From NCBI GenBank assembly GCA_019703815.1, contig AP023052.1, forward strand, positions 930,001 to 994,000: a stretch of 64,000 bases of DNA. Reading direction: 5' to 3'. Shown piece after piece: positions 35,539 through 41,225 of the stretch. The notes beneath the pieces were generated by a model. It saw only the letters and a list, made by a program, of their open reading frames with translations, did no database searches and had not been told where the DNA came from. Origin of the DNA: Thaumasiovibrio occultus (GTDB lineage: Bacteria > Pseudomonadota > Gammaproteobacteria > Enterobacterales > Vibrionaceae). How positions within the stretch are numbered: the stretch's first letter is position 1; each line of letters opens with the position of its first letter. A program made the position numbers and the translations under genes.

Positions 35539-35985
35539 TTATTCAGCGCTGGATCGATAGGGTGCAATGAGCGCCATGATGTAGTCCGGCTCTAAGTGGC
35601 TATCGCAGTGATTCATGGTGTTGGTTTGCTCGCTTAGTACCACCTCACCTTGGGCTGGTAAATACAGTGCGTGAGAAACGGTCTGGCACTTATCGCCTGT
35701 GCTGATCTGTTGTTCAATCACCAACACGTGAGCACCACCGATGACCAAAGCATTGGGGATATTAGTGCCGGTTAGAGGCTGGATTTGGCAGCGGCCTGCT
35801 TGGCTAAAAGGCGTGTGCAAGGTCAGTTCATCTTGGTCGGAGGCGATTTGAAGCGTACAAGGTGCGCTAAGGCTAACGGTGTGAGTACCCAACTGCCAGT
35901 TAAGAGCTTGGTGGTCAGCCGGTTGATGATTTTGTGCGAAAGAGAAGCTGCTCATCAGCAGCGTAGCGATAGCGACGTACTTCAT
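35539..35985 (-). CDS. Secreted hypothetical protein with two Cys pairs
   Basis: A 148-residue protein with a signal peptide (MKYVAIATLLMSSFSFA) and a short beta-rich mature domain with four Cys residues (CTLQIAS, GRCQIQPL, KCQTVSH, NHCDSHLE), likely two disulfides. No domain recognised. AAACG precedes the ATG region (GGAACGAAACA) and gives a weak Shine-Dalgarno. It is followed leftward by 295 bases without a gene that I can support. Confidence 0.6.
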   Translation of the reverse strand: MKYVAIATLLMSSFSFAQNHQPADHQALNWQLGTHTVSLSAPCTLQIASDQDELTLHTPFSQAGRCQIQPLTGTNIPNALVIGGAHVLVIEQQISTGDKCQTVSHALYLPAQGEVVLSEQTNTMNHCDSHLEPDYIMALIAPYRSSAE

Positions 35986-36291
35986 TGTTTCGTTCCATTA
36001 GTAAATGTCCATTCAATCAGTATGCTACGCCTTATGGCGTGAAAGCCCAATTGGCAGAACTGGCGCTCGCTCGAAGTTTTTCCATCTAATTGAAATAAAA
36101 GAATTAAGTCTCAAAAAGCAGACAGACAAGCGGTGAGATTTCATTGGAGACCGGGACAGAGGGGATAACTTTTTGATCGCGAGCGCAGCTGGATGGCTAA
36201 TTTGTCCGTGTTGACATTAAAGGTAGAGATCGGATCGAGATCTGGCTGCAAAATCAAGCGTTAAGGACGTTTTTTCCGGCCTCAAAATATT

Positions 36292-36378
36292 TGTGCATAA
36301 CAGTAAAAGTTATCCACAGAACGAAGAGGTGCCGTGGCTAAAGGAAGAATTCGACTTATCCACGATTTCTGTGGATAA
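36292..36378. promoter_or_regulatory. DnaA-box cluster, candidate DARS1-like site
   Basis: Four boxes fit TTATNCACA or one base off: reverse TTATGCACA (36292-36300), forward TTATCCACA (36310-36318), forward TTATCCACG (36356-36364) and reverse TTATCCACA (36370-36378). The last two face each other across five bases. In E. coli the DnaA-reactivating sequence DARS1, with a three-box core, lies beside uvrB (bioD-uvrB). The matching location makes DARS the first choice; a regulatory DnaA site for uvrB is the alternative. Confidence 0.6.
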
Positions 36379-36910
36379 CGATGTTGATGGATTTGTATAT
36401 TTATTTTTGTGAGTTAAGTTCAAAAAAACGTAATAATCCGAATTAAAAATAAAATCACATAAAAACAGTGCCTTAGGTGGTTCTGTTGATTGGGATCAAT
36501 TATCCTCAGATTTTACGGTGTTAAATGGCGCATTTTTTGACCAGAAAGAAGGCTTGTGAATAGCGAGGATAAACAGGTGGACAATTAAACCACAGGTATC
36601 AATGAAAATAGATGATTAATGCGGGGGGATTCAGCAAAATAAGAAGAGAGATTTAACGTAATTTGGATATGCATTCCTGCTGGTTTGCATCGTTTACGCT
36701 TGGCATTTTTTAACGCTGAGCAATACAGATTGATTGCTGGGACGAGGATAGTACGAGGATGACATCGAAAATGCAACCCTATTTCGAGGAGATTTCGGTT
36801 TAGATCGCGAGTCCGTCGAGACTCGTCTAGAAAACCGGATTGCGTCTGTCTGGCAAATATTGGCGCTCTGGGTGTTGGGGGAGTGTCTCTTATCCTTTCG
36901 CTATCGCAGG

Positions 36911-36938
36911 TTGACAATTGGCTTGCTAGCCTGACAAT
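36911..36938 (+). promoter_or_regulatory. Predicted uvrB promoter
   Basis: TTGACA (36911-36916), 16-base spacer, GACAAT (36933-36938). No LexA box of the CTG-N10-CAG kind was found between 36480 and 36960. Confidence 0.5.
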
Positions 36939-36967: not shown

Positions 36968-38989
36968 ATGACTAAGTCTTTTGTTCTATCTTCACCTTTC
37001 AAGCCATCCGGTGATCAGCCTACGGCGATCGCGCAATTATTGGAAGGTTTAGATAGTGGTTTGGCACACCAGACACTGCTTGGGGTTACGGGCTCAGGTA
37101 AAACGTACACCATGGCAAATGTGATCGCGACGGCCGATCGTCCAACCTTGATCTTGGCGCCGAACAAAACCCTCGCAGCGCAGCTTTATGGCGAGATGAA
37201 AGAGTTCTTCCCTGATAACGCCGTCGAGTACTTTGTTTCTTACTACGACTATTACCAGCCTGAAGCCTACGTTCCCACCACCGACACTTTTATCGAAAAA
37301 GACGCCTCGGTGAACGCTCACATTGAACAGATGCGCTTGTCGGCGACCAAAGCCTTGATGGAGCGTCGTGATGTGGTGATCGTGGCGTCGGTGTCTGCCA
37401 TTTACGGCTTAGGCGATCCTGAATCTTATCTAAAGATGATGTTGCATGTACGTCGTGGTGATGTCTTACCACAACGCGATATGTTGCGCCGTTTGGCGGA
37501 GTTGCAATACACCCGTAATGACATGAATTTTGAGCGCGGTACGTTTCGGGTGCGGGGGGAAGTGATCGATATTTTCCCTGCCGAATCTGAGCGTGATGGC
37601 GTGCGCATTGAGATGTTCGACGACGAAGTTGAGAATATTTCGATGTTTGATCCGCTCACCGGTATGGTGAATCAAAAAAATCTGCCGCGATGTACTATCT
37701 ATCCCAAAACGCACTATGTCACACCGCGAGAGAAGATCCTTGAAGCGATCGATGGGATCAAAGAAGAGTTGGTCGAGCGTAAGAAATTTTTGCTCGATAA
37801 CAACAAGCTGGTGGAAGAGCAGCGGATCAGCCAACGTACTCAGTTTGATCTCGAAATGATGCAGGAGCTTGGTTACTGCTCGGGTATCGAAAACTACTCG
37901 CGTTATTTGAGCGGGCGTGCAGAAGGCGAAGCGCCACCGACGTTGTTTGACTACTTGCCGGCAGATGGTTTGCTGATCATTGACGAGTCTCACGTAACGG
38001 TATCGCAGATCGGTGCGATGTACCGCGGCGACCGCTCGCGCAAAGAAACCTTGGTGGAATATGGGTTCCGCTTACCGTCGGCATTGGATAACCGCCCGAT
38101 GAAGTTCGAGGAATTTGAAAGCCTGGCGCCGCAAACTATTTACGTGTCCGCGACGCCGGGAGCCTACGAGTTAGAGAAATCTGACCGCGATATTGCCGAG
38201 CAAGTTGTTCGTCCTACTGGATTGCTTGATCCTGAGTTGGAAGTGCGTCCAGTGGCAACGCAGGTGGATGATTTGCTCTCAGAAATTCGTATCCGTACTG
38301 AGAAGAACGAGCGAGTGTTAGTGACCACGTTAACCAAGCGTATGGCGGAAGATCTGACCGAATATCTGACCGAACACGGTGTGCGCGTACGTTACCTACA
38401 CTCTGATATTGATACCGTCGAGCGGGTAGAAATCATTCGTGATTTGCGCTTAGGTGAATTCGATGTGTTGGTCGGCATTAACTTGTTGCGTGAAGGCTTA
38501 GATATGCCTGAAGTGTCCTTGGTGGCAATTTTGGACGCGGATAAAGAGGGCTTCTTGCGCTCAGAGCGTTCGTTGATCCAGACCATAGGCCGTGCGGCGC
38601 GTCACCTCAACGGTAGAGCCATTTTGTATGCAGATCGCATTACGGGTTCGATGAAGCGAGCGATGGACGAAACTAACCGTCGTCGAGACAAACAGCGCGA
38701 CTACAATGAGAAAAACGGGATTACCCCGCAAGCGCTGAACAAGAAAATCGCCGACATCATGGAGCTGGGCGGCGGTAAATCGAAATCGGTCAATCGTGCT
38801 GCGCAATTGCATAAAGTGGCAGAGCAAGGTGCGGCGTACAGTAATTTGTCGCCCCAAGAGTTGGAAAACCGTATCCAAGCGCTGGAAAAAGAGATGTACG
38901 ATTTTGCGCAAAATCTGGAGTTTGAAAAAGCGGCAGAGAAGCGGGATGAAATCGAAACCTTGCGTAAACAGTTTATTGCTAACAGCTAG
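36968..38989 (+). CDS. uvrB: Excinuclease ABC subunit UvrB
   Basis: A 673-residue DNA-repair helicase-like protein, the full usual length. Walker A GVTGSGKT is at about 40-47, the beta-hairpin region [12 protein letters not shown] near 92-103 inserts between DNA strands, the DESH box is near 337, the helicase motifs ([24 protein letters not shown]) come in the second RecA lobe, and the UVR motif binding UvrC is at the C-terminus ([24 protein letters not shown]). It verifies damage brought by UvrA and recruits UvrC in nucleotide excision repair. AGGGAA precedes the ATG. In vibrios it sits beside luxO, as here. Confidence 0.97.
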
Positions 38990-39311: not shown

Positions 39312-39405
39312 AAAATCAGCGGCTAAACTTTCTCATTTTGCAAACAATGTCTTATGATTAATACAGACGTTAACAATTATCGAAAAATTGAGTCGAGAGG
39401 AACGG

Positions 39406-40863
39406 ATGGACGCTGAGTCAAGAAGACGTATTTTGATGGTCGAAGATACGGCCTCAGTCGCCGCATTGTATAAATCCTATCTCAACCCGTTGGGCGTGGA
39501 TGTCACGATTGTCGGAACGGGAACCGAAGCACTTGCAGCGATTGAGCTGTTGCCGCCTGATCTGATCTTACTCGATCTGCGACTCCCCGATATTACCGGA
39601 ATGGAGGTGTTGCAGTTCGTTAAAGTGAACCACCCCGAAGTCCCGGTGATCATTATGACTGCGCATGGCTCGGTGGATGTCGCGGTAGAAGCGATGCGCT
39701 TAGGGGCGTTCGATTTTCTGATCAAACCTTGTGAAGCGGAGGGGCTGCGCATTACCGTCAACAACGTGTTCAAGCGCATGCAGCACTCACCCACCTCTGT
39801 GGCGGAAGAGCTAGGCGGCAAGTCGGCGAACTACCAAGGTTTCATTGGTAAAAGCTTGGTGATGCAGGGTGTTTATCGCACGATTGAATCGGCGGCATCG
39901 TCGAAGGCAACGGTATTTATTACCGGTGAAAGTGGCACAGGTAAAGAGGTGTGTGCTGAAGCGATTCACTCGGAAAGCCCACGCCGTAATGGCCCGTTTA
40001 TTGCGATCAACTGTGCTGCTATTCCTAAAGAGCTGATTGAAAGTGAGTTGTTTGGTCACTTGAAAGGCGCATTTACCGGTGCGGCGTCTGAGCGTAAAGG
40101 CGCGGTAGAGTTGGCGCACAACGGGACCTTGTTTTTGGATGAGCTGTGCGAAATGGACTTGGACCTACAGTCAAAACTCCTGCGCTTTATCCAAACCGGC
40201 GTGTTCCACAAACTGGGCTCGTCGAAAGAGATGAAGGTGGATGTGCGCTTCGTGTGTGCCACCAACCGTGACCCATGGCAAGAAGTCAAAGAAGGGCGAT
40301 TCCGCGAAGACTTGTACTATCGCCTACATGTTATTCCTATCAAACTGCCGCCGCTCAATGAGCGGGGTGATGATGTACTGGATATCGCACAATCGCTGTT
40401 GGCGCACATGGCCGTGGAGGAAAACAAGCCGTTTTCGCGTTTTGATAAGCAGGTTGAAAATATCTTCTTGCAGTATGCGTGGCCTGGGAATGTGCGTCAG
40501 CTACAAAATGTGATCCGCAACATAGTCGTGCTAAATAAAGCCGAAGTTGTGAGCGTCGACATGCTGCCACCGCCATTAAACGAATTTTCTGGTGCTAATT
40601 TTGCATTACACAACCATATCGACCCTGTTTCACAACAACAAGGTGATATCGAGCCACCGAGCGAGCCTATCGCAGTGTCGGCATCGAAATCGACAATCCA
40701 GCCTTTATGGCTGGTAGAAAAACAGGCGATCGAAGCAGCAATTGCAGCGTGCGACGGTAACATTCCTCGTGCAGCTGGGTTGCTGGAAGTCAGTCCATCC
40801 ACTATTTACAGAAAATTGCAGACCTGGCAAGAAACAGCAGGCGACAAAGGGGAGACGGTTTAA
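39406..40863 (+). CDS. luxO: Quorum-sensing response regulator LuxO (sigma-54 activator)
   Basis: The 485-residue protein has a receiver domain (1-125) with [15 protein letters not shown] and the phospho-acceptor Asp57 in [11 protein letters not shown] sigma-54 AAA+ domain (about 145-385) has Walker A GESGTGKE, the GAFTGA loop that contacts sigma-54, and [14 protein letters not shown] Fis-type helix-turn-helix is at the end ([20 protein letters not shown]). Phosphorylated through LuxU at low density, it turns on qrr. Start chosen at MDAESR with GAGG upstream; the frame opens at TTG six codons earlier. Its stop overlaps the luxU ATG (TAATG). Confidence 0.96.
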
Positions 40864-41225
40864 TGGGGAGTAACACCATCAACTCCGATACAATTAAACA
40901 ACTTGCTACAGAGGTAGGGGAAGATACGGTTAGTGTACTTCTTGGCGTCTTTAGTGACGAGTTATCTCAGTATCATGCGACGTTAAGTGATTCACCGTCG
41001 ATCGGTGAAATTCGCGAAATCAGCCACTCATTGAAAAGTAGCGCCAGCAGCTTTGGTGCTGACGCCTTAGCGGATCTCGCGCGTGAGTGTGAAAGCCGCG
41101 TAAAGCAAGGTCAAGATGATTGGGTGATCCAACAATTGAATGATTACTGCGGCTTAGTGGGAGCGATGGCTAAACGTTACCGTTCACTCGCTGCAGCAGA
41201 GAATCCGCTCAATAGCCACTTTTAA
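40863..41225 (+). CDS. luxU: Quorum-sensing phosphorelay protein LuxU
   Basis: A 120-residue single-domain histidine phosphotransfer protein. The active His55 sits in REISHSLKSSASSFGA, the LuxU/Hpt motif. The four-helix bundle passes phosphate from hybrid kinases (LuxN, LuxPQ or CqsS type, not in this window) to LuxO. It is coupled to luxO by the TAATG overlap. Its last 42 bases overlap, in antisense, the end of the YvcK-like gene. Confidence 0.95.
   Translation: MGSNTINSDTIKQLATEVGEDTVSVLLGVFSDELSQYHATLSDSPSIGEIREISHSLKSSASSFGADALADLARECESRVKQGQDDWVIQQLNDYCGLVGAMAKRYRSLAAAENPLNSHF

Follow-up and report, generated by a model that had tools for sequence, protein, structure and literature searches.

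The E. coli sites DARS1 and DARS2 are described as having in common a core of three equally spaced boxes, in which box I runs opposite to boxes II and III (PMC5742627), and ADP is reported to be freed by head-to-head dimers of ADP-DnaA on boxes I and II (PMC8682772), with all three core boxes called necessary for nucleotide exchange (PMC4245941). Within the Vibrionaceae, V. cholerae has previously been described as having DARS-like sequences at uvrB and mutH (PMC6090056, citing Fujimitsu 2009); these belong to the same family and locus as the element considered here but to a different genus, and the passage on them in PMC6090056 mentions neither a four-box form nor sites on chromosome 2. A further V. 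cholerae sequence, crtS, has been likened to DARS (PMC3937223, PMC6139311), being a site on chromosome 1 which acts on an initiator, as DARS does; its target, however, is RctB, the initiator of chromosome 2, and not DnaA. No report of a DARS on a vibrio chromosome 2 was found among titles, beginnings of abstracts and passages in the open full-text literature, passages of PMC11711613, PMC5854411, PMC12371093 and PMC4245941 included, and such a report may be in print elsewhere.

The DnaA box cluster described here very probably represents the DARS1 orthologue of a two-chromosome Vibrionaceae genome, which would extend a known form of DnaA control to another genus of the family. Judging from the sequence comparisons below, DARS1 has in this genus gained two further boxes.

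The box cluster and its likeness to E. coli DARS1 and DARS2

The window, that is, the whole stretch of 64,000 nucleotides that was analysed, corresponds to C1:930001-994000 of a genome of two contigs. The initial annotation had described four DnaA boxes in 87 bases (36292-36378), two of them head to head across a 5-base gap, an AT-rich stretch beside them and a place next to uvrB equal to that of E. coli DARS1, and all of these were recovered: three boxes are perfect and one has a single mismatch, the inner pair forms an exact head-to-head 23-mer, the AT-rich flank stands against a GC of 0.425 at 36300-36379, and the locus is the same as that of DARS1, with uvrB named by NCBIfam (Table 1). The two outer boxes are tail to tail with a 9-base gap, the second of them sitting 37 bases before box I. 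To the four boxes we add a weak one at the box III position, which departs from the consensus at 3 of its 8 fixed positions and the TGT start of which is invariant in an alignment of 14 DARS1 loci. The region from 36292 to 36390 is non-coding, being free of ORFs of at least 80 aa, and the next large plus-strand ORF to the right is uvrB itself. Further downstream of uvrB, at 39388-41225, lie luxO (an NCBIfam equivalog above cut-off) and a luxU-like gene (below cut-off).

Table 1. Positions of the features discussed, given in window coordinates unless a contig or locus is named
Feature	Location	Strand	Remarks
Outer DnaA box TTATGCACA	36292-36300	-	Exact consensus; sequence and spacing identical in genus-mate G005
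Outer DnaA box TTATCCACA	36310-36318	+	Exact consensus; sequence and spacing identical in G005
DARS core box I TTATCCACG	36356-36364	+	One mismatch to TTATNCACA; box TTATCCACT of E. coli DARS1 has this place and gap
DARS core box II TTATCCACA	36370-36378	-	Exact consensus; faces box I; agrees with E. coli DARS1
Weak box III position, plus strand TGTTGATGG	36382-36390	-	3 bases after box II, the E. coli box III gap
AT-rich flank	36379-36459	.	GC 0.225 for 36380-36459
Candidate uvrB promoter TTGACA-16-GACAAT	36911-36938	+	Consensus scan; far from the DnaA boxes
uvrB	36968-38989	+	ORF of 673 aa; scores 1090.7 bits as UvrB equivalog in NCBIfam (cut-off 743)
DARS2 orthologue (L089)	C1:2659912		Between rppH and mutH (NCBIfam names); core with box III TGTGAAGAA
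Chromosome-2 DARS-like core (L090)	C2:795155		Exact core; syntenic with a core in G005
Chromosome-2 DARS-like core (L141)	C2:535680		Core with one mismatch; syntenic with a core in G005
Chromosome-2 DARS-like core (L091)	C2:1180970		Exact core; syntenic with a core in G005
Vibrio-like chromosome-2 three-box sites	L161, L163, L165, L167, L168, L171, L173, L174, L177, L178, L250		L250 from V. campbellii
Third core, nine g12 genomes	L160, L162, L164, L166, L170, L172, L175, L176, L179		

For direct comparison the DARS1 and DARS2 regions of E. coli K-12 were fetched. E. coli DARS1, in the bioD-uvrB intergenic region, reads TTATCCACT-ATTCC-TGTGGATAA-CCA-TGTGTATTA and the window element TTATCCACG-ATTTC-TGTGGATAA-CGA-TGTTGATGG, so that the two share the uvrB locus, the orientation of boxes I and II, the 5-base gap between them and the place of box III at a gap of 3. 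They differ in that box III is weak here and two extra outer boxes are present, in the distance to uvrB (396 bases from the core in E. coli, as against 589 to the start codon here) and in the left-hand neighbour, which is bioD in E. coli and here an ORF of 148 aa (35539-35985, minus strand) with no NCBIfam match. The E. coli DARS1 stretch compared showed nothing corresponding to the outer two boxes, and the idea that all four boxes define DARS1 was rejected since the inner pair alone matches E. coli.

E. coli DARS2 (rppH-mutH) has the same core geometry as the window element, together with an IHF-Fis arrangement which the latter lacks; here, IHF sites with one mismatch were found at -104, -190 and -262 relative to the core and a single Fis match at +172 (36528). 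The IHF scan, which also served as a check for a datA-like feature, placed the nearest match, with one mismatch, at 36252-36264 and outside the box cluster, whilst a LexA scan gave a best match of two mismatches at 36202, which is weak. The genome has its own DARS2 orthologue between rppH and mutH, the box III of which, TGTGAAGAA, is identical to that of E. coli DARS2, if, as we read it, the E. coli core unit is L003:1636. E. coli DARS2 carries IHF sites with one mismatch at +93 and +109 and an exact Fis consensus at +145; the orthologue carries an exact IHF consensus at +94 and no exact Fis consensus at the corresponding place, but has one at -113.

The positions of the two sites along the chromosome were also compared. 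The start of C1 falls between mnmG and mnmE (ORFs with NCBIfam names), and oriC1 was therefore taken to lie there. On a scale from 0 at oriC1 (oriC in E. coli) to 1 at the point opposite it, the window element lies at 0.62 and DARS1 of E. coli at 0.66, whilst the DARS2 orthologue lies at 0.30 and DARS2 of E. coli at 0.41, the E. coli values depending on the position which we assume for oriC in that genome. The second contig, C2, carries a gene for RctB near its start (Pfam RctB_central, 1.2e-188) and is thus chromosome 2 of a member of the Vibrionaceae.

It was considered whether the cluster could be a chance grouping of boxes, or an AT-rich palindrome without function. Single boxes are no commoner than expected in the window, the pattern TTWTNCACA occurring 8 times against 7.07 expected and TTATNCACA with at most one mismatch 42 times against 55.9, and at least one head-to-head 23-mer with up to two mismatches arose in 13 of 100 shuffles, all of which would suit such an origin. 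The window itself holds a single match to this 23-mer, which is exact, against 0.15 expected; three of the eight TTWTNCACA matches fall inside the 87-base cluster, and a Poisson estimate for at least three boxes in 87 bases gives P ~2e-7 per stretch and ~1.6e-4 over the window. Across genomes, 290 exact cores with a gap of 5 were counted in 121 family genomes, as against 206 when the other 29 spacings are summed (7.1 each), a 41-fold excess over their mean, and the reversed pattern, used as a control, was found 0 or 1 times per genome. Chance was rejected on this excess and on the conservation of the core and its spacing across genera, and its probability appears negligible.

Conservation at uvrB and the proposed function of the element

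Conservation of the boxes in relatives, the lack of which the initial annotation had named as refuting its reading, was borne out for the core, which recurs in other genera; the outer boxes are shared with the genus-mate only. Eighty named loci were fetched by means of UvrB and 33 of them scanned for the core over 1.5 kb. An exact core was found 385-523 bases upstream of uvrB in all five named Vibrionaceae loci and in 11 of the 12 enterobacterial loci (none in the twelfth), and a core with one mismatch in the three Aeromonas loci; the other 13 loci (Alteromonas relatives, Halomonas and others) gave no core at up to three mismatches within the 1.5 kb scanned. Of 44 genomes of the family examined by sequence, 30 showed a core that was exact or had a single mismatch. 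Six of the 14 misses are genomes in which no core was found in the stretches fetched (G014, G015, G020, G066, G120 and G001) and eight are genomes in which none was found within the 1.5 kb searched (G030, G035, G036, G054, G058, G062, G070 and G083); for G036, coordinates place an exact core 2.9 kb from uvrB, beyond the stretch searched by sequence. Coordinates likewise put the core at most ~510 bases from uvrB in 14 of 14 g10 genomes of the sample and in those 14 of its 35 g12 genomes for which places were listed, these g12 genomes having been chosen for holding matches. By uvrB identity, each of the 11 g12 genomes compared is closest to a named Vibrio (75-83%), and the nine g7 genomes fall partly with Vibrio and partly with Photobacterium.

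In the 14-locus DARS1 alignment, conservation is almost confined to the core and the box III position, and the outer boxes were absent from their places in the other loci examined, G005 alone excepted. In G005, the sole genus-mate compared, the four boxes are retained at 36 of 36 box bases with the same spacing, as against 21 of 51 bases in the spacers (Fisher P 5.8e-10). The whole four-box element is, however, inverted relative to uvrB in that genome, as seen from two matching pieces ~200 bases apart which lie on the opposite strand. Its persistence as a whole in this state provides a natural test. One of these conserved and co-inverted stretches, at 36556-36595 of the window and ~200 bases from the core, holds a further DnaA box with one mismatch, CTATTCACA, on the minus strand. 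Elsewhere, ORFs lie between the core and uvrB, a single one of 580 aa in G021 and several in each of G006 and G077.

These arrangements bear on the alternative that the boxes form a DnaA-controlled operator of uvrB, tying expression of the repair gene to the cell cycle. DnaA boxes lie near a uvrB promoter in E. coli, and the element here is upstream of uvrB, with a weak promoter match at 36372-36401 overlapping box II. This match is one of 3 found around the element against 2.3 expected, and as the scan is so near chance the best of them, listed in Table 1 as a candidate, must itself be regarded as weak; that candidate lies far from the boxes, and the core is 589 bases from the start codon. 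An operator, moreover, has no need of the gap which the element has in common with DARS2 and the chromosome-2 sites. As the core is kept when inverted or when separated from uvrB by ORFs, it is best regarded as a stand-alone site; an operator as its main role was rejected on the inversion, the intervening ORFs and the distance, and is in our view improbable.

A second alternative is that the cluster titrates DnaA and leaves the bound nucleotide unchanged. Titration has been argued for the chromosomal DnaA boxes of E. coli (PMC12371093), and four boxes within 87 bases would be in keeping with it. It does not call, however, for a fixed head-to-head gap of 5 with a third box at a gap of 3, and yet this geometry is conserved, so that we consider simple titration to be very unlikely. 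Identification of the element as a DARS1 orthologue is favoured over an operator because the four boxes recur in inverted form in G005 and because ORFs intervene in three relatives. This identification should nevertheless be considered with some caution, given the weak box III, the 14 of 44 genomes for which no core was found in the stretches searched and the restriction of the outer boxes to the genus-mate.

For the action of the window site on DnaA, we infer from work on E. coli a sequence of steps as follows. ADP-DnaA bound to boxes I and II would meet head to head through its AAA+ domains, leading to release of ADP; the resulting apo-DnaA would leave the site and take up ATP, raising the amount of ATP-DnaA for the next round of initiation at oriC1. 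The outer two boxes may load extra DnaA, as the accessory half does in E. coli DARS1. The DARS2 orthologue and the chromosome-2 cores would presumably act as DARS1 does.

Cores on chromosome 2 and in other genomes

Exact cores number four in this genome, at uvrB, at rppH-mutH and at two places on chromosome 2, where a third core has one mismatch (Table 1). The genus-mate G005 likewise holds four exact cores and one with a mismatch, with neighbours shared site by site. The core at C2:535680 has a perfect box III at a gap of 3. Scans for IHF and Fis at chromosome-2 sites A and B gave nothing; site C, which is without a box III, has IHF sites with one mismatch at -266 and +58 and a single Fis match at -148.

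Of 296 family genomes, 195 carry the motif TTATCCAC-N7-GTGGATAA-N3-TNNGGATAA, which spans all three boxes, when one mismatch is allowed; these comprise 193 of 194 g12 genomes, one g4 and one g8 genome, and the reversed three-box motif, as control, was found in none of the 296. Places of this motif were taken from among the matches listed, those with one mismatch included. A syntenic three-box core was present in all ten g12 genomes fetched, on the contig bearing rctB in eight and on another draft contig in two (G044 and G111). In V. campbellii LJC015, chromosome 2 was located by megablast of a chromosome-2 stretch against plasmid records; it is a 2.06-Mb record filed as a plasmid, which carries rctB and a three-box site with the same neighbours. 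Synteny was examined in these ten g12 genomes, in one g8 genome and in V. campbellii. In L161, the one of these loci scanned with Pfam, the core is flanked by a FAD-oxidoreductase gene and an FtsX-type permease gene. Not all genera have their chromosome-2 sites in the same place.

When contigs are taken as circles, the distance from rctB to the g12 site amounts to 0.83-0.99 of the half circle in all eight genomes measured, and four of five named Vibrio records have the three-box motif at 0.93-0.97, the exception being Vibrio sp. HDW18 at 0.39. Other exceptions are the G011 site, at 0.13, and the sites of the window's genus, at 0.78-0.84 and 0.27-0.30. Of 11 g12 genomes searched, 9 have a dif-like motif, which we presume to mark the terminus, 16-54 kb from the site (in G105 by subtraction of coordinates, on a contig presumed to bear rctB); G079 showed no dif-like motif on chromosome 2, and for G091 the place of the site was not among the matches listed. 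In two g7 genomes the distance is 98-278 kb. Neither the window's own genome nor G011 gave a match to the dif-like motif, and G005 did so on chromosome 1 only.

On this basis we tentatively raise the possibility that the Vibrionaceae carry a genome-wide set of more than two DARS, in which the terminus-near three-box site on chromosome 2 of Vibrio-like genomes, being copied last, would feed completion of the RctB-driven chromosome back on DnaA and hence on the next initiation of chromosome 1, with three other chromosome-2 sites perhaps doing so in the window's genus. Against so wide a reading stand the exceptions in position given above, the want of a box III at site C and at the third cores of g12 genomes, and the extra cores outside the family. 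Such feedback, if real, would run counter to the crtS signal, whose direction is from chromosome 1 to chromosome 2, and were the chromosome-2 cores to reactivate DnaA, vibrio chromosomes would signal both ways. It is for this reason that the chromosome-2 cores carry more weight than the window site itself, and coordination of both replicons could then be approached through one 35-base element.

The place of a third box was also considered across 23 chromosome-2 sites, many of which are homologous and therefore not independent in this count. A box at a gap of 3, with at most two mismatches and the better of two orientations taken, was present in 21 of them; at other gaps the mean was 1.1 and the largest count 9, for a gap of 1, which also stands out.

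In nine of the ten g12 genomes a third core lies close to a formate/nitrite transporter gene, and in seven of these it shares a contig with uvrB. In L160 it lies between a UPF0014 gene and the formate/nitrite transporter gene (Pfam), neighbours which the other eight share, and no clear box III was seen at these third cores. In G111 the third core and the chromosome-2-type core are on one contig, 48 kb apart.

Outside the family, most of 148 genomes hold 0-2 exact cores each, and genus g14 reaches 3 and 4. Exact matches to the core of 24-26 bases were also observed on plasmids of Klebsiella, Pantoea, Erwinia and Pseudomonas (L252 and L253 among them), so that plasmids perhaps carry DARS-like sites as well. 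Given these plasmid matches and the counts of 3 and 4 in g14, extra cores are not unique to vibrios. A separate arrangement was observed at C1:2865020 (L092), where perfect DnaA boxes stand head to head with a 10-base gap, and pairs with this gap are also found in several g10 genomes.
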